The position numbers were made by a program, and so were the translations under genes. From Gammaproteobacteria bacterium (lineage in GTDB: Bacteria; Pseudomonadota; Gammaproteobacteria; HK1): a stretch of 64,000 nt of DNA. Under the pieces are notes generated by a model that saw only the letters and a program-made list of their open reading frames with translations, ran no database searches and was not told the origin of the DNA. Every line of letters starts with the position of its first letter. The stretch's first letter is position 1. This document shows positions 32,898 to 41,633 of this stretch, piece after piece. The stretch is from positions 1 to 64,000 of the forward strand of contig JAJDUQ010000168.1 in the NCBI GenBank assembly GCA_022826505.1, in the 5' to 3' direction.

Positions 32898-34442
32898 TCA
32901 CAGATTTCGCCAGCGACCGATCTGCTCCTTCAGAGCGACCACGAGCTCGGGAATGGTGTCTTGCTCGGCCTCCCGCTTGCCGACGATCCGGGCGATTCCC
33001 GGAACAGTCCGCTTGATTTCCTCGGCAAAGGTACCCAAGGCGGCCTTGGCGGCATCGCGCTGCTGGACGGCTCCTTCGACGAGATGCGCCACCCTGTCCG
33101 TCATCTTCTTCATGTCGGGCACGGCAAGGCCGAACTCGGCCGCATACCGCTCCGGCCGCTGGCGCACGATGTCCCAGATCCACCTCTCCGGGGGGACATC
33201 TCCCGGCAGAAACAACGGTTGCAGCGCATGTCCATATTTCTCTGCCGCCGCCTTCAGACTGTTCTCCATCGCACGCGAGTCACCGTCCAGCACCAGTACG
33301 AAGTCGGCGAGCTTGCCGAACTTTCCGAGCGTGTGTACGTGGCTCGGAAACTCGTTTCGTCCCGTGTCGCGACCGATGATGATGTCTTCGGGGTGCAGGC
33401 CCAACTCGACGTTCAGCACGTCCAGCACGCCGCGGATCACGCCTTCCGCTACCTCGTCTTCGCACAGAATGGAGAGACGGTCCTGCGACTGCCCGTACAA
33501 CGCCTTCTGAAAGATGTCGCGGTAGAGCGGCTCGCGCCGCACCTGACCGGTGACGTGATCGCGATCCAGGAAGATCCGCGCTTCGGGCGGCACGCTGTCC
33601 AGTACGACCGGACTGTGCGAGGCGACGATGATCTGCAGGTTCTGGCGCAACGCGCTTCGCTGCAGTTCCAGCATCGCCTGCTGCTGCGTGTAGGGATGCA
33701 GCCCCGTGTCCACTTCGTCGATCAGGACCAGTGCGTTCTCGAGACCGGAGATGTCCTTCGAGATACGCACGATGGTCCGTTCCCCGGAGGACATGTGGAA
33801 CTCGGAATAGCGGGTTTCTCCGGTGCCTTCGATCTCCGCGAAGAGCAAGTCTCGGGAGGGCTGGCCGCTGATGAGATTCAGGCTTTGATACCGCCACGGC
33901 AGAATGCGGTGGGCGAAGATCAGCAGATCCGGACCGATCGTCTCGGTACGGACCTGCCTTCTTCCGATCTGCAGGATGCTCCGCACCTCGCTCGGACTGG
34001 TGAGATTCGCGAGGGTACGCAGATAGACCTGTCGTTCGGGCTGGCTGTCTCCTTTCCGGCTCCACGATTTTCCCCGCCTCCACGTCATGGAGCAACGTGC
34101 GCCACGGTGAAGGTAGTGAAACTCCAGCCGTGTCTCCGGCGCCAAGTCCGATTGCACGGCCGGCTGCCGGCTGATGAAGTTGGGAAACAGGCGGCTGGGA
34201 GCAAAGTCACCGGGACCCCGTCCTGGCACGCGATAAGCGCAGGCGCAAGCGAACAAGACCGTGGACTTGCCGGAACCGTTGGGGCCGGCCAGGACCGAGA
34301 CGGGGTAGTCGAAAGGAAACCGCAGGTCCCAGATGCCGCGCAGGTTCCGTATGCGGACCTCCACCAGAGACTCGTCGCGCTGGCCCTTGCTGGCGCGTAA
34401 CGCATTCCATACTTCGTTCAGTTGCGCGGCAATCTGCGACAT
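32898..34442 (-). CDS. ABC-type ATPase with C-terminal TOPRIM-like domain (OLD-like)
   Basis: A 514-aa protein. The ATPase domain has Walker A GPNGSGKST (53-61), signature MSSGERT (217-223), Walker B ALVLIDEVD (237-245) and the switch His in VASHSP (276). From about residue 322 a TOPRIM-like fold appears: ILCEDEVAEG (acidic Glu328-330), then LVLDGDS with Asp386 and Asp388. This combination is that of OLD-family nucleases and related phage-defence ATPases. The tail (410-514) is helical. It follows the methyltransferase by 67 bp on the same strand; AGGGA precedes the ATG. Confidence 0.82.
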   Translation of the reverse strand: MSQIAAQLNEVWNALRASKGQRDESLVEVRIRNLRGIWDLRFPFDYPVSVLAGPNGSGKSTVLFACACAYRVPGRGPGDFAPSRLFPNFISRQPAVQSDLAPETRLEFHYLHRGARCSMTWRRGKSWSRKGDSQPERQVYLRTLANLTSPSEVRSILQIGRRQVRTETIGPDLLIFAHRILPWRYQSLNLISGQPSRDLLFAEIEGTGETRYSEFHMSSGERTIVRISKDISGLENALVLIDEVDTGLHPYTQQQAMLELQRSALRQNLQIIVASHSPVVLDSVPPEARIFLDRDHVTGQVRREPLYRDIFQKALYGQSQDRLSILCEDEVAEGVIRGVLDVLNVELGLHPEDIIIGRDTGRNEFPSHVHTLGKFGKLADFVLVLDGDSRAMENSLKAAAEKYGHALQPLFLPGDVPPERWIWDIVRQRPERYAAEFGLAVPDMKKMTDRVAHLVEGAVQQRDAAKAALGTFAEEIKRTVPGIARIVGKREAEQDTIPELVVALKEQIGRWRNL

Positions 34443-34509
34443 GCGTGTCCCTGGTGTGAGAAGTGAAATCGGCTATGGGGTGGCCCGGTTCGATCACCGG
34501 TTGCCGCTG

Positions 34510-37500
34510 TCACCGGGCACCGCCCGCATCACCTGCGAGCATCCCGGCCCGCTTCGCGCCTGCACTCCTGGCGAGACGGCTGATCTCGGGCCAACTCCGC
34601 ACCAAGCCATTGTAGGCCAGCGACTCGGTAACGAAGCGCTTGCGCTCGCACACTGAATACAGGCGGTAGCACAGATCGCGGGCAACATCGGCACGGGCCA
34701 GCGCAGCGGTCGGCACCGCCGCGGCAACCGCACCTCCCAGCGCCAGCAGCCGGATCAGGTGGTGGAGCGCCTTCCAGGTGGCAGGTCGCTCATCGATATC
34801 GGGGTCCCACCAGGAGGACAGCTCCTCCGGCCGCAGGAGCCGCACGTCACCGGCCCGCAAGCGAAGGATCTCCACCTCCCCAATCTCGGCCACGCTGGTG
34901 TTCATCGCCTCGGCCAGGGATTGCGCGGCGTGCTGGTCGCCCGCCTCGAAGCCATGTTGCTCGAACCATGCCAGTGCCCAGCGGCTGATGGAATCCAGGT
35001 TGCCGTCCTGCGCCGCAAGGGATTCGTGCAGAGTCCGGGCGATGAGAGCCAGCGCATCGCGGACCGACAACGGTTGACCATCGGCACCTAGCACCCGGGT
35101 GTAGCGAGCGTAGACCGCCAGGCCAGGACCGGCGGCAGCGTGGGAGAGATCGGCCGGGGCGAGGTTGCTGTCCTGAAGCAGGCGTAGCGCTTGCGGCATC
35201 TCGGCTCCGAGCTCGGCCAGGAATTCGCGATGTGTGGTCGCATGGGCACTGTTCGGACGACGGCGGCAAACGAGGACGATGCCCGATGCGGACTCGCTGC
35301 CGGCGACATCGCCCATTCGGCCACTGCTTTCCGTACGCACCGGCCACGTGCCGTTGATAGCAAGTCCCGACCGAATCGCCGAATCGACAAGGGCTTCCCA
35401 GTTGGCGCTCGCGGCTGTCGCTTCGTCCCTGGAACCGGGTGGCTTGAAAGCATAGTAGATGGTGACAGGGAAACCGGGATGCGATTGCTCTGCCGTCCGC
35501 CGCATCGCTTGCCTCGTTCCCTCGAGGAAGAACGCCACCGCCTTTTCCTTGTCGCCGTGACGACCCGGGACCACCACCAGCTCCTCCGCCTTCGGAACCG
35601 CACCTTCGACGAACAGGTCCGGGAATACCGGTTTCAAGCATCGACGCAGCCAAACGTAGAAGAAATCGGACAAATCTGCGTAGCCGACGTTGTCGTAGTA
35701 CGGAGGATCGGTCGAGACGACCCTGTTCACGCTCAGTATCTGCCGGGTCGCATCGGCCTGAACGGCGGAACCGAATGACACGCTGCTTCCGGAAATGGGC
35801 CGGTCGTTGCGTGCAACGGTCGCCCGGACGACGCCCCGAGGGGTGTCGATTCGGGCGGTGTTCACCGTGGCTCCGGCAATGCCATCGGTGATCCACGGGA
35901 TCGTCCCCGGAAAGCCGCCGGCCCCTCTCGATATCGGGTTGGACTCCGCGTAGTCCCACGTCATCGGAATGGCCTGACGAGCAAAGGTGTTCCGAATGGA
36001 TTCCCTCTCGGCCGACCACGTGCAGATCGTCGATCCGCGGTCGGCCAGTCTGGACAACGCAAACGCCAGGTAGACACCAACCCCTTCCGCGTACGCGGCC
36101 GCTCCCGTTCCGCCGTCGCGCAGCGGCTTCCCGTCGTCGGGCAGCTTGGCGCCGATCGCATCGCGACGAACATGCGCAATCGCTTCCGCAACCAGGTCCG
36201 AGAACGTGGTCAATGCGACGAGCTGGCGCGGGGTGAAATAGTCCCCGAATGTCTCGAACCCGTAACGTCGTCCCTGGGCGTTGCCCGCCCACGTTCCACG
36301 ACTCGGTGTGTCCGGCTTCCAGACGGGCTCCGCACTTCGCGCGACGGCTTCGGCCTCCGGCATTGGCGAGAGGTAGACTCGCGTTCGATCTCCGGCGAGG
36401 ACGATGGCCATCAAACGTTCCTTCATTCGGCCGGCTTTCGCCTCGTCATCGATGTACTCGTACGTGATGGGTTCATCCGAAAGCAGGCACCGAAATGCAC
36501 GGGACGACAGCCTGGTACCCCCCCGAGCTGCACCACCGTCCGCCGGCTTGCCTGTCTTCACCGCAAACCGATAGCGGGGTGCCTCGACGACCGGCTCGAC
36601 GTATGCCTCCCTGCCTTTCCTGGTGGAGAGCATGAAGGAGGACACGAGCGGTACGTCCACGTCTGCGAATTCCGGGTGCGGGCTCTTCACCGTGCGCGCC
36701 CAGAGCCATGCGACGACGGTCAACTTCCGTCTCGCGTACGGCTTGAGGTCAGGCCGCTCTCGGATGATTTGCGGGGTGATCTCGACCTTGGGATAGAGGT
36801 TCCCGATCCGCCGTTCGGCTTCGTCGCGCATCCAGTTGCCATAGTAGCGAGCGTCCTCCGCCAACCCCTGCGTACTACTCGGCTCTCGGGCAACAACCGT
36901 CGGATCTCCCGTCGCGTCCGGGTTCACGGGCGACTGATGAACGAATCGCGGCGGGATTTCGATCATCGCCTTGGTAATCAGCACGGCCACCGGATTCAGA
37001 TCGCTGGCATGGGCACGGAGGCCGAGTCGTTGTGCTTCGAGGGGCAGTGCTCCACCGCCTGCGAAAGGATCGTGGAATTCCGGCAGCTTGTCGGAATTGA
37101 AGAGCTTCCAGACGCTGGAATTTCCCTCGCTACCCATGCTCTCTCGATGAATTTCGTGCACGGAGCAGGCCCGCCGCCAGCTTCGACGGATCTCGGTCTG
37201 CGCCCGATTCAGCACATCCTCGTTCGCGGTGTTCTCCCACTGCACCAACTCTTCGACAAGCTTGAACAGCCTCTCACGTTCCAGCGCCGCCGCCATTTCA
37301 CGAAGGGCTCGGCTGGCCGCCTGAGCCGGTGCCAGGTCATCCGGTTCGCGCACCTGATTCGGCGGCACGGCGGCACCTCCTTCTCCGGAACCCGACGAGC
37401 AGGCCTCTGTCGGCACGGATTTGCCCAGCCGCACCAATTCGCGTGATGCTGCAAGCCTCGTTTGCGGGTCTGCCAGCAACTCGTCCACGTACTCGGAAGG

Positions 37501-37671
37501 GTCATCAACCATCTGGGCAAAGATCACCGCACGCGCGACCGCTTGCGGGCGCCGCGCCCACCACAGATGCAGCGCACTCGGATGCCCGCGTCTGACCAAT
37601 TTCTCCCGCGCCGCCGCCCGGTTGATGGCATTGAGGGGCAGCGCCGCTTCGATCAGTTTCCTGCGTTGCAT
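34510..37671 (-). CDS. DUF1156-containing adenine-specific DNA methyltransferase
   Basis: A 1,053-aa methyltransferase of COG1743 type. The DUF1156 block starts at the N-terminus (RRKLIEAALPLNAINRAAA, then LHLWWARRPQAVARAVIFA). The SAM-binding motif I is DPFAGGGALPLEA (about 201-213) and the catalytic motif IV STDPPYYDNVGYADLSDFF (about 653-671). A CLLSDEPI block (about 395) stands where relatives carry a Zn-ribbon. Relatives occur in anti-phage islands and in BREX type 3. ATG 37671 follows GGAGGTG; the frame runs 25 residues further through an inverted repeat. It heads a four-gene operon with the ATPase, the nuclease-like and the small gene. Confidence 0.88.
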   Translation of the reverse strand: MQRRKLIEAALPLNAINRAAAREKLVRRGHPSALHLWWARRPQAVARAVIFAQMVDDPSEYVDELLADPQTRLAASRELVRLGKSVPTEACSSGSGEGGAAVPPNQVREPDDLAPAQAASRALREMAAALERERLFKLVEELVQWENTANEDVLNRAQTEIRRSWRRACSVHEIHRESMGSEGNSSVWKLFNSDKLPEFHDPFAGGGALPLEAQRLGLRAHASDLNPVAVLITKAMIEIPPRFVHQSPVNPDATGDPTVVAREPSSTQGLAEDARYYGNWMRDEAERRIGNLYPKVEITPQIIRERPDLKPYARRKLTVVAWLWARTVKSPHPEFADVDVPLVSSFMLSTRKGREAYVEPVVEAPRYRFAVKTGKPADGGAARGGTRLSSRAFRCLLSDEPITYEYIDDEAKAGRMKERLMAIVLAGDRTRVYLSPMPEAEAVARSAEPVWKPDTPSRGTWAGNAQGRRYGFETFGDYFTPRQLVALTTFSDLVAEAIAHVRRDAIGAKLPDDGKPLRDGGTGAAAYAEGVGVYLAFALSRLADRGSTICTWSAERESIRNTFARQAIPMTWDYAESNPISRGAGGFPGTIPWITDGIAGATVNTARIDTPRGVVRATVARNDRPISGSSVSFGSAVQADATRQILSVNRVVSTDPPYYDNVGYADLSDFFYVWLRRCLKPVFPDLFVEGAVPKAEELVVVPGRHGDKEKAVAFFLEGTRQAMRRTAEQSHPGFPVTIYYAFKPPGSRDEATAASANWEALVDSAIRSGLAINGTWPVRTESSGRMGDVAGSESASGIVLVCRRRPNSAHATTHREFLAELGAEMPQALRLLQDSNLAPADLSHAAAGPGLAVYARYTRVLGADGQPLSVRDALALIARTLHESLAAQDGNLDSISRWALAWFEQHGFEAGDQHAAQSLAEAMNTSVAEIGEVEILRLRAGDVRLLRPEELSSWWDPDIDERPATWKALHHLIRLLALGGAVAAAVPTAALARADVARDLCYRLYSVCERKRFVTESLAYNGLVRSWPEISRLARSAGAKRAGMLAGDAGGAR

Positions 37672-37705
37672 CCCGACACCTCCGACGGGTCTACTGCGCA
37701 TTCCG

Positions 37706-37753
37706 TTGTTGATTGCGGCCGGCTCATCGACACCTCGCCGCCACAATCAACAA
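37706..37753. promoter_or_regulatory. 10-bp inverted repeat upstream of the DUF1156 operon
   Basis: TTGTTGATTG (37706-37715) and CAATCAACAA (37744-37753) are exact inverted repeats separated by 28 GC-rich bases, 35-82 bp upstream of the methyltransferase ATG. The arms are AT-rich in a GC-rich setting. This may be an operator or a promoter-embedded stem; no regulator gene is adjacent. Confidence 0.65.
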
Positions 37754-37956: not shown

Positions 37957-38478
37957 ATGATGAGCTTCCGCGTGCATCAAGCGCGAACCGGTGACGCGGC
38001 AGCGGCGGCGGCCGTGTTGCGTGCGTCCATCACCACCCTGTGCCTGGCGGACCACGGCAACGATCCGCAATTGCTCGCGTGCTGGCTCGCGAACAGGACA
38101 CCGGGTAACGTCCGCACCTGGATCGAAGGCCCCGGGCGATTCGTGGTCGCGGAAGAACGCGGACGGATCGTGGGCGTGGGCGGGGCCTCGGTATCAGGGG
38201 AGATCGTGCTCAACTACGTGCTTCCCGAGGACCGCTTTCGAGGTGTGAGCAAGGCCGTGCTGATCTCGCTGGAGACGCATCTGCGCGCGCAGGGGCTCCT
38301 CCGCAGCACGCTCTTCAGTACCCGTACAGCCCATGAGTTCTACCGCGCGATGGGGTACGTCGAGACGGGAAGACCGCACGTGGAGGATGGGCTCACGGCA
38401 TTTCGCATGTTCAAGGATCTCTCGGCTCCGCAGCCCACGCACGACGCGCCGTCACTCGTCAGTCCCACCGGGGGATGA
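37957..38478 (+). CDS. GNAT-family acetyltransferase
   Basis: A 173-aa N-acetyltransferase. FRVHQARTGDAAAAAAVLRA opens the GNAT fold, RFVVAEERGRIVGVGGASV and GEIVLNYVLPEDRFRGVSK form the central strands and acetyl-CoA loop (a degenerate V-x-P-x-x-R-x-x-G), and AHEFYRAMGYVETG is the C-terminal signature. I prefer ATG 37957 with GGAGAAG six bases upstream over GTG 37942. The stop overlaps the start of the patatin-like gene as ATGA, so the two are coupled. Confidence 0.87.
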   Translation: MMSFRVHQARTGDAAAAAAVLRASITTLCLADHGNDPQLLACWLANRTPGNVRTWIEGPGRFVVAEERGRIVGVGGASVSGEIVLNYVLPEDRFRGVSKAVLISLETHLRAQGLLRSTLFSTRTAHEFYRAMGYVETGRPHVEDGLTAFRMFKDLSAPQPTHDAPSLVSPTGG

Positions 38479-39488
38479 GAGACCGTGGACATTCTCGGTG
38501 CCACGCCATGACTGCGCTCGGCAATTTTGGCCGCCGCCAGGAGGTCTCGGACCGGAACCCGCCGGACACCGAGGGCGCATATTTCTCAGCGCACGACGAC
38601 ATCGACGCGGTGGTGTTCTCCGGTGGGGGCGCGCGATGCTTCTGGCAGGCCGGGTTCTGGCGGGCGGTGAAGGACGCGTTGCCGAGCCCTGCCGTGGTCG
38701 CGGCGGTGAGCGGGGGCGCGGCGCTGGCCACAATTCTGTTCGCCGGTGGCTGGTCCCGCTTCTTCCCCAGGTTTCTCGAGCTGGCGGCGAGCAGCGGGGG
38801 CAACTTGCAGCTCGGCAATCTGCTTCGTTGGCGACGGGTGTTTCCCCATCCACGTATCTCGCGCGACTCCTTCCTTCACTCCGTGTCCCTGCCAGGACTC
38901 GAACGACTGTGCGAGGGACCGGACTTGAGAATCGTCATCTCGCACCCGCCGCGACTCCTGGGGGCATGGCTCGGCTCGGTGGCCGCAGCCGCGGTCTGCG
39001 GGATCGAGAAGGGTCTGACGAAGCGACTGTGCCCGCTTTGGGTCGGAAATCTGGGATTCCGGACCAGCGTGGTGAGGGCCCGCGACTGCAGCACGCCGGA
39101 AGAACTCGTTCACGCGATCTTCCAGTCCTCCGCCGCGCCTCCCGTTTTCCCCGTGACCCGCCGCAACGGACGTCCGGCACTCGATGGTGGCCTGACCCCG
39201 CCGGAGCCGTACGGGGACCTGGATCGCACGTGGCAGCCCTTCCCGTCGAGGCCATGTACGCGTGTCCGTCGCCGGTGTCGACTCCCGATCTCCGCGTCTC
39301 TCCTCACCCGGCCACATCGAGCCGCGGGGCAACCTGCGCCCACAACTGCTCGAAGGCGCGCGCCGGCGCGCTCGACGGCGCGAACGCGGTCACCGGCATC
39401 CGCCGGGGGCCCATCTGCTCCACCTCCGTGGCGTAGGGGATGTAGATCCGGGAGCACTCCGGCGTGCGGCGCGCGAAATCCACCATGA
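38475..39488 (+). CDS. Patatin-like phospholipase, C-terminus doubtful
   Basis: A 337-aa frame. The N-terminal part is patatin-like: the oxyanion motif FSGGGARCFWQAGFW, the nucleophile AVSGGAAL (Ser with Gly-2 replaced by Ala) and DGGLTPPEP holding the catalytic Asp. After about residue 245 the translation becomes Arg/Pro-rich and loses the usual final strand, and the frame overlaps the convergent parA gene by 185 bp. A frameshift between 39190 and 39240 is possible: the next frame reads VAALPVEAM, reminiscent of the patatin DNVPVEAL segment. It is coupled to the upstream GNAT gene by ATGA. Confidence 0.65.
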   Translation: MRDRGHSRCHAMTALGNFGRRQEVSDRNPPDTEGAYFSAHDDIDAVVFSGGGARCFWQAGFWRAVKDALPSPAVVAAVSGGAALATILFAGGWSRFFPRFLELAASSGGNLQLGNLLRWRRVFPHPRISRDSFLHSVSLPGLERLCEGPDLRIVISHPPRLLGAWLGSVAAAAVCGIEKGLTKRLCPLWVGNLGFRTSVVRARDCSTPEELVHAIFQSSAAPPVFPVTRRNGRPALDGGLTPPEPYGDLDRTWQPFPSRPCTRVRRRCRLPISASLLTRPHRAAGQPAPTTARRRAPARSTARTRSPASAGGPSAPPPWRRGCRSGSTPACGARNPP

Positions 39489-40053
39489 TGTTGCGGTGCA
39501 GGCGCCGGCGCCGGTCGGCCATGGAAAAGAACGGGACGATCTCGGCTTTGAGCGAGCTGGTCCGGGCGTGGCGGAGGAGTTGCGTGTAGGTGCGAAGCGA
39601 GAGCGTGGTGGGGATGGTCGGGACGAGCACGAGGTCGCTCGCCCGCATGACCGCGTCGGATACGAGCGACACCCCGGGGGCGCAGTCGACGAAGACGAGA
39701 TCGTAGTCGCCGCGCATCGGCCGCAGCAGGCGCCGCAGCCGGGTGAGCGGATCGCCGAGCCTGTTCAGCGCCAGCACCAGGCTCCGCAGCGAGAAGTCGG
39801 CGGGGACGACGTCGAGCCCCGGGAAATCGCTGGCCTTGATCGCCTCTGCGAGCCGGTTCTTGCGCTTCAGCAGCCGACGGGGTCCCCCCGCGAGCTTCGG
39901 CCGGATGCGGAGGTAGAAGCTCGCGGCGCCCTGCGGATCGAGGTCCCACAGCAGGGTCCTCGCCCCCCCGCGCGCGGCGAGGTGCGCGAGGTTCACCGCC
40001 GCGGAGGTCTTTCCAACCCCGCCCTTGATGCTGAACAGCGCGACCGTCTTCAT
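39304..40053 (-). CDS. ParA/MinD-family ATPase
   Basis: A 249-aa ParA-type ATPase. The deviant Walker A is SIKGGVGKTSAAVN (8-21), Walker A' is LLWDLDPQGAASFY, and Walker B is LVFVDCAPGVSL. Such ATPases form nucleoid gradients to position plasmids, chromosomes or cell inclusions. There is no parB gene or parS-like repeat in view. The ATG overlaps the stop of the CHAD gene (ATGA), so its partner is probably the CHAD protein. It converges with the patatin-like gene. Confidence 0.9.
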   Translation of the reverse strand: MKTVALFSIKGGVGKTSAAVNLAHLAARGGARTLLWDLDPQGAASFYLRIRPKLAGGPRRLLKRKNRLAEAIKASDFPGLDVVPADFSLRSLVLALNRLGDPLTRLRRLLRPMRGDYDLVFVDCAPGVSLVSDAVMRASDLVLVPTIPTTLSLRTYTQLLRHARTSSLKAEIVPFFSMADRRRRLHRNIMVDFARRTPECSRIYIPYATEVEQMGPRRMPVTAFAPSSAPARAFEQLWAQVAPRLDVAG

Positions 40054-41633
40054 GCCCGCGCGCGGCGGAGCGCGGCGCTGAACGCCTTGTGCGCCCGCTT
40101 TGAATCGTAGCTCTTGAATCTGGCCGCGAACTCGGCCCTGGTCTTGCGCTCGCGCTCGGCCAGCGCCGTGCACTGAGCCTCGATGCCTTCGACCGCGACT
40201 GCGTCGAGCGACTCCCGGGCGTACTCGCGGAATTCCTCCAGTACCGTGCGCTGGACCTGTACGTCCTGGTACGCGCCGAGGTTGTCCTGCAGGCGCTTCA
40301 GACGGGCGATGGTGCGCTCCACCGATTTCGCGGGATGGACGTCGCGAAAGAACTCCAGCAGGTACCGCAGGCGCTTGCAGGTCTTGCGCAGATCGTGAAG
40401 CGCCTCGGCCGGGCTCGCGTCCCCGATCGCCCGGCCCTCGGTCAGCGTTCGGCGATACACCTTGAGGATCCGTCCCGCCGACAGGGCCCCGATGGGGACG
40501 AGCGCGTTCGCGCTCCGCGGACGCGCGGGCGGCTCGGATTCGAGGAACTTCCGCAACGCGGCCCGTGCGCGCCGATAGCGCGCCGAGCGGAGCGCACGGC
40601 ACAGCGCGCGGAACTCACGCTTCCTGACTGCTTCGAGGTGGGCGCGCAGCGCGGCGGACGCAGCGGCCTGTCCCGCCTCGTCGTCATCGACGGCGGCGAA
40701 CTCCATCAGGTGGACGTCGAGATCGCGTACCGGCCCCGTGCACCGTCCGAGCCAGCCGAAGTCGGCCCTGAGCCGCTTGGTGACGGCCGGCGGAAACACG
40801 CGCCTCATCTCCCCGAGCAGCGACCGCGCCCGGCGGACGGCGACCCGGAAATCGTGCAGGCACTCGGGGTCGAGATCGGCCTCGACGCCGGGCGCGTTCA
40901 CCTCCAGCGCCGCTTCGAGCCGCGCCAGCAGCCGCTTGCACGCGACGTCGGAGCGCTCGTCGGGGTCGGGATCGGCACGGGCCGGAACCGGGATGCCGCC
41001 GAAGGCCGCATCCGGGCCGTCGTCGGCCGCGAGCATGGGATCGCCGTCAGCGGGCGCTACCCCGTCCGCCTCCCGCACCCTGCGGATCGCGCGCCGGGCC
41101 ACGCGCTCGTAGCCACGCAGGGGACGGATCGTCATCCGGGCCGGACCGCGCGGCGCGGTGAAGCATTCCACGACCAGCACGGTCTTGTCCTCGGAGTCGA
41201 GGCCCCGGACGACACCGAGCCGCCCCCGGGTCTCCGCAACCACGAGCAGCCGCCGGATGTCGATCAGGGGCTGGAGCATCGCGCGCATCCGAGTGTGGGC
41301 GATGTCGCGCGCGAACGCCGGCAACGCCGCGCCGGGCGCGTCGGCCAGGAGTCGAGGTTGACCGAGCTCGCGGTAGCGCAGTCCGGTCTCGCCGGGGAGG
41401 GTCACGTGCTCCAGCACGAGCCCGGCGCGGCGCAGGCTCCGGTCGAAGGTGTCGAGGTAGCGCACGTGGGCCGGTCGTGCCGCCTGCGCGGACACCGCGA
41501 GCTTGCCGAGCGCGGTCGCGACCAGCCGGCGCGACGCGAGCCGGCGCGGCACCGCGAACGCGCACGCATCGACGGCCGCGGCATTGTCCGATCGTCTGCT
41601 CATCGGCGCGTAATCTACCGCTATCGGAACCAT
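40050..41633 (-). CDS. CHAD-domain protein
   Basis: A 527-aa protein whose C-terminal half (about 230-510) is a CHAD domain: helical, His/Arg/Lys-rich, with ECLHDFRVAVRRARSLLGEM and EALHDLRKTCKRLRYLLEFF, the two conserved His-x-x-Arg/Lys helices. CHAD domains bind polyphosphate, and in Ralstonia such proteins localise to polyphosphate granules. The N-terminal 200 residues have no domain that I recognise. Starts at 41633 or 41603 (MSRRSDN) are possible; neither has a strong ribosome site. It is coupled to parA by ATGA. Confidence 0.88.
   Translation of the reverse strand: MVPIAVDYAPMSRRSDNAAAVDACAFAVPRRLASRRLVATALGKLAVSAQAARPAHVRYLDTFDRSLRRAGLVLEHVTLPGETGLRYRELGQPRLLADAPGAALPAFARDIAHTRMRAMLQPLIDIRRLLVVAETRGRLGVVRGLDSEDKTVLVVECFTAPRGPARMTIRPLRGYERVARRAIRRVREADGVAPADGDPMLAADDGPDAAFGGIPVPARADPDPDERSDVACKRLLARLEAALEVNAPGVEADLDPECLHDFRVAVRRARSLLGEMRRVFPPAVTKRLRADFGWLGRCTGPVRDLDVHLMEFAAVDDDEAGQAAASAALRAHLEAVRKREFRALCRALRSARYRRARAALRKFLESEPPARPRSANALVPIGALSAGRILKVYRRTLTEGRAIGDASPAEALHDLRKTCKRLRYLLEFFRDVHPAKSVERTIARLKRLQDNLGAYQDVQVQRTVLEEFREYARESLDAVAVEGIEAQCTALAERERKTRAEFAARFKSYDSKRAHKAFSAALRRARA

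Follow-up and report, generated by a model that had tools for sequence, protein, structure and literature searches.

The spacing of polyphosphate (polyP) granules in bacteria, and their inheritance, is an open question. We know of no system in which ATP-driven spacing or sharing of these granules has been shown. AlgP is the only positioning factor named for polyP granules in a 2025 review of organelle positioning, which describes the polyP-positioning proteins of Caulobacter as yet to be identified and does not settle whether ATP is required; neither CHAD nor any ATPase for polyP is mentioned there (PMC13052382). No polyP granule cargo is reported in the accessible part of a ParA/MinD survey in Halothiobacillus. 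The CHAD domain binds polyP, not nucleic acids, and mutation of H253, R256, R260 or R296 in CtCHAD weakens or abolishes the binding (PMC6537752). Other CHAD proteins localize to polyP granules in vivo (cited in PMC9239181). A folD-ppk-parA-CHAD cluster of Acidithiobacillus was described in 2019 and 2024 and, in the accessible parts of both accounts, interpreted in terms of cAMP synthesis or copper resistance (PMC6416229, PMC10892726). Within the open-access literature, the accessible parts of these accounts do not contain the idea of CHAD-parA as a polyP positioning pair.

The CHAD-parA locus

A CHAD gene and an orphan parA lie on the reverse strand of the window, i.e. the whole stretch of 64,000 nucleotides that was analysed. 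The features are:

40050-41633 (-): CHAD gene, 527 aa; Pfam PF05235, 6.2e-57, residues 238-465
39304-40053 (-): orphan parA, 249 aa; AAA_31, 6.5e-29; ParA-type ATPase of a separate clade
40050-40053 (-): ATGA start/stop overlap of CHAD and parA, suggesting translational coupling
41013-41576 (-): N-terminal CYTH/triphosphate-tunnel fold without the catalytic ExExK (AF2 model and structural match)
40056-40985 (-): CHAD domain of the long type with polyP-contact residues (Z 33.9 to 6qva)
40006-40026 (-): deviant Walker A KGGVGKT, residues 10-16 of ParA, invariant in the clade
39883-39909 (-): clade-specific ParA loop, residues 49-57 (G-V-D-K in other ParAs)

The initial annotation had read an ATGA overlap and no neighbouring parB from the sequence. 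Both observations are borne out: the overlap occupies 40053-40050, no parB adjoins the pair, and the ParB-family matches of the genome are on other contigs, the strong one on contig C91 beside a different ParA. The source genome has a separate canonical parAB. Its sole CHAD gene is the one paired with parA, and its ppk1 is located on a different contig. Homologue N-termini hint that translation of the CHAD gene may start at the second ATG, residue 11. The 5′ side of the pair is occupied by a CrtC/lipocalin gene and an ABC permease, the 3′ side by a convergent patatin-like ORF. This patatin-like phospholipase ORF (38475-39488, +; PF01734, 4.7e-22, residues 45-244) overlaps the 3′ end of parA by about 185 nt; its tail past the domain is perhaps spurious or the product of a frameshift. 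At 32898-37746 (-), where GC is lower (0.63-0.65), an HmaB-like DNA-adenine methylase of the Hma defence system (DUF1156, 1078 aa, PADLOC 1236 bits) is encoded beside an AAA ATPase resembling HEC-04/PtuA. This stretch is possibly a defence island adjoining the pair.

AF2 gave a confident model of the CHAD protein (pLDDT 91.7, pTM 0.87). From about residue 217 to 526 it superposes on 6qva, the crystal structure of the Chlorobium CHAD with polyP, at 2.2 Å over 306 residues. H260, R263, R267 and R303 are the equivalents of the four CtCHAD residues named above, and the polyP-contact residues are kept in 57-60 of 60 ParA-linked proteins. Binding of polyP by this protein is predicted from these residues. 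The N-terminal 200 residues, previously regarded as unassigned, do have an assignment: the model matches the CYTH/TTM fold of 2gfg (Z 13.1, 3.3 Å over 163 residues), with further matches to ygiF (5a60) and thiamine triphosphatase. The ExExK motif of the first strand is absent from the source protein and from all 60 ParA-linked proteins; it is present in 9 of 17 CYTH-CHAD proteins unlinked to ParA. The N-terminal domain is predicted to be a degenerate, catalytically dead CYTH. ParB-type partners usually stimulate ParA through a disordered N-terminal arginine segment. No conserved segment of this kind was seen in the CHAD proteins, which counts against positioning.

The ParA carries an intact KGGVGKT, and K10, K15, T16, D37, D39 and D123 of the deviant Walker A, Walker A′ and Walker B motifs are invariant in 29 homologues. 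Its model (pLDDT 88) is nearest in fold to Soj/ParA (8ray, Z about 32) and then to McdA (Z 28); Soj/ParA is also closest by sequence. BcsQ and FleN, ParA/MinD relatives that regulate enzymes or transcription, are among the structural neighbours but less close. MinD carries a C-terminal membrane-targeting amphipathic helix. None was found in this ParA, and the median extension past W238 is 10 residues. The protein is strongly basic (pI 11.2). The clade-specific loop, with R-V/I-K/R-P-K/R-V-K/R-G-G as the consensus of the clade, takes the place of G-V-D-K in ordinary ParAs. Chromosomal ParAs carry a PRN-type basic motif; its absence here is a further point against positioning.

Distribution and polyphosphate gene context

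A homologue search with the ParA as query, using one genome per species, retrieved 80 loci. At 60 of these the CHAD profile identified a same-strand CHAD ORF immediately upstream of parA. The 60 loci come from Gammaproteobacteria, Actinomycetota, Acidobacteriota, Thermodesulfobacteriota, Myxococcota, Dormibacterota and SAR324. The exact 4-nt overlap of the source pair recurs in 46 of 72 pairs, some genomes being counted twice. CHAD and parA are in the same frame at L026, L018 and L090; natural CHAD-ParA fusions were not noticed in the loci read. The survey of adjacency that the initial annotation proposed thus led well beyond the source genome, to many families and several phyla.

A profile built from this ParA was also run against 276 Gammaproteobacteria genomes, sampled evenly and independently of the first search. 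The bit scores split the clade (254-400) cleanly from other ParAs (150 and less). The clade was found in 40 genomes, and CHAD adjoins it in 30, spanning 20 families (read from tables), where about 0.01 would be expected by chance. CHAD occurs in 36 of these 40 genomes and in 54 of the 236 others (p 3e-16, relatedness not corrected). Among 149 Acidobacteriota genomes five encode the ParA; all five have CHAD, adjacent in three. The clade is rare in Actinomycetota (5 strong and 2 weaker cases among 197). In a tree, all CHAD-linked ParAs group together (SH-aLRT 98) to the exclusion of 18 ordinary ParAs, and within this clade CHAD linkage has been lost repeatedly. Distances of CHAD and ParA are correlated (r 0.78; as high in 0 of 2000 permutations). 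Given the separate parA-parB of the genome and the distinct clade of the CHAD-linked ParAs, this ParA is not the chromosome-segregation ParA; the initial annotation had allowed that it might be one, with a distant parB.

Clade ParAs also occur without any detectable CHAD in the genome, i.e. in Chromohalobacter moromii, two Zetaproteobacteria, and genomes G041, G219, G306 and G312. Since such members exist, and ppk1 is absent from two of the 40 clade genomes, CHAD is not an obligatory partner everywhere. The Chromohalobacter moromii genome (L043) contains ppk1. The ParA neighbours in the two Zetaproteobacteria (L073, L078) are unrelated, encoding RsgA and RmuC. At L137 and L139, ORFs of 714-736 aa upstream of parA were considered as a shared novel partner and rejected, since they are only the shadow frame of a gene for an AMP-binding enzyme, as L140 revealed. 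At the remaining CHAD-less loci no common gene was found upstream of parA (MFS, RmuC, PmbA/TldD, RsgA and others). L154 (G250), L155 (G137) and L160 (G222) encode long CHAD proteins that belong to this subfamily and likewise have no ExExK, but do not adjoin a clade ParA; they may use another partner. In G137, about 4 kb separate ppk1 from the CHAD gene.

The link of CHAD-parA to polyphosphate is strong. Of the 40 genomes with the ParA clade, 38 carry the polyphosphate kinase gene ppk1, compared with 133 of the 236 others (Fisher p 7e-7, relatedness not corrected), and nearly all clade genomes that have lost CHAD retain ppk1. It lies within 10 kb of parA in 6 of 40 clade genomes (0.2 expected). 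Several loci are of a polyP-operon type, ordered ppk1-ppx-(ppk2)-sixA-CHAD-parA. The pair is accompanied by ppk1, ppx, ppk2 and a SixA-type phosphatase gene at L130, by ppk1, ppx and sixA at L128, by ppk1 and ppx at L129, and by ppk1 and sixA at L131. PPK2 genes are located close downstream of parA at L004 and L035. In Acidobacterium Mor1, CHAD adjoins ppx and ppk1 while parA is elsewhere. At L127 (5659-8686, +), ppk1 and parA overlap directly and CHAD is reduced to a broken fragment, which suggests that a clade ParA does not need CHAD to work beside PPK1.

NUDIX enzymes of the DIPP kind cleave polyP. A fusion of a SixA-type phosphatase with a NUDIX domain is encoded near CHAD-parA at L031 (7123-8112, -), and homologues of its NUDIX part directly downstream of parA at L141 (2633-3067) and L142 (8061-8474). 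The NUDIX protein may be a further part of the module.

Granule positioning and alternative roles

The initial annotation proposed a polyP-granule positioning pair. Its polyP part has gained support from the neighbouring ppk1, ppx, ppk2 and sixA genes, the co-occurrence with ppk1 and the contact residues; positioning itself we infer. The pair probably constitutes a two-gene positioning system for polyP granules. The CHAD protein would coat the granule surface via its CHAD domain, a property established for CHAD domains and expected here from the conserved residues. ParA-ATP would dimerize and bind the nucleoid non-specifically, by analogy with its relatives. Granule-borne CHAD may then engage ParA and trigger ATP hydrolysis. 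Local clearance of ParA would let the granules climb a ParA gradient in McdAB fashion, distribute over the nucleoid and pass to both daughters. Coupled translation would keep production of the adaptor and of the ATPase in balance. The degenerate CYTH, its tripolyphosphatase role presumably gone, would most likely serve in ParA docking or granule spacing. Direct support for the tethering role that the initial annotation considered for the N-terminal 200 residues did not emerge.

As the two genes stay together across phyla and among polyP genes, they probably form an ATP-driven system for granule spacing or sharing. Positioning is favoured because order and overlap are conserved across phyla and the ParA co-occurs with ppk1 and CHAD; because of the polyP operons, the ppk1-parA overlap, the proximity of ppk1 and the conserved contact residues; and because of the Soj/McdA-like fold, invariant ATPase motifs, missing membrane tail, basic pI, correlated divergence and separate parAB. 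The clade ParAs without CHAD, the two of 40 genomes without ppk1 and the location of the source-genome ppk1 on another contig count against it.

The pair could instead serve polyP metabolism, the ATPase switching or scaffolding PPK/PPX at the granule in the manner of BcsQ or FleN, and CHAD acting as polyP sensor. The adjoining polyP enzyme genes and the presence of BcsQ and FleN among the structural neighbours are consistent with this role. However, Soj/ParA and McdA are nearer in fold and sequence than BcsQ or FleN, and none of the enzyme genes adjoins the ParA as constantly as CHAD does, so we consider it unlikely. An active CYTH-CHAD enzyme, either a class IV adenylate cyclase or a tripolyphosphatase, regulated by polyP and assisted by ParA, would agree with the CYTH/TTM fold and with the CYTH adenylate cyclase assigned to the Acidithiobacillus cluster in the accessible part of the 2019 account (PMC6416229). 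The loss of the first-strand ExExK in 60/60 ParA-linked proteins, when 9/17 unlinked ones retain it, makes this very improbable.

Next in rank, and about as improbable, is a ParA that couples polyP to chromosome segregation, with CHAD-polyP as a signal or alternative ParB and DNA moved rather than granules. The resemblance to chromosomal Soj fits this, as does the dependence of polyP granule placement on chromosome segregation in Caulobacter (PMC13052382); the genome's own parA-parB, the separate ParA clade and the binding of polyP, but not of nucleic acids, by a CHAD domain (PMC6537752) count against it. Mere co-transcription of two genes without joint work is the least probable reading. The genes are unlinked in some genomes that carry both, but order and overlap are conserved across phyla, CHAD and ParA co-occur even where unlinked, and their divergence is correlated.

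Taking granule positioning as the preferred reading, we lean on balance towards a dedicated, widespread system for ATP-driven spacing and partition of polyP granules, in which both the cargo and the adaptor class, the dead CYTH-CHAD, are new for ParA ATPases, and which has probably moved between phyla as a two-gene module. If true, polyP granules join the list of ParA/MinD cargos. The candidate is conserved, comprises two genes and is present in cultured species such as Thiorhodococcus mannitoliphagus DSM 18266, Methylohalomonas lacus and Acidithiobacillus, so the question is directly testable.

Comparison with known systems

McdA-McdB likewise combines an orphan ParA-type ATPase with an adjoining partner gene and a protein-bearing cargo, and McdA is a clear structural neighbour (Z 28). 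In contrast, the partner here is a CYTH-CHAD protein predicted to bind polyP rather than McdB, the predicted cargo is polyP instead of carboxysomes, and the ParA is nearer to Soj than to McdA. Neither an McdB partner nor carboxysome genes were found next to the ParA, whose neighbours at other loci are polyP genes. ParABS (Soj-Spo0J) supplies the nearest ParA by sequence and fold, but the present locus differs in having no adjacent parB, a separate clade, a clade-specific basic loop and a genome with its own parAB.

The CHAD protein shares the CHAD fold and polyP-contact residues with CtCHAD (6qva) and the CYTH-CHAD domain order with the E. coli tripolyphosphatase ygiF. It differs in the loss of the catalytic ExExK of the CYTH and in its genetic tie to ParA. 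The Acidithiobacillus cluster is described as containing the same gene pair beside ppk1; its accounts, in their accessible parts, concern one genus only and propose no positioning role (PMC6416229, PMC10892726). AlgP for polyP and PhaM, PhaF and PhaH for PHB also maintain the spacing of storage granules over the nucleoid (PMC9239181, PMC13052382). They are single histone-like or DNA-binding proteins without an ATPase, whereas the system described here is predicted to combine an ATPase with a separate granule-binding protein.
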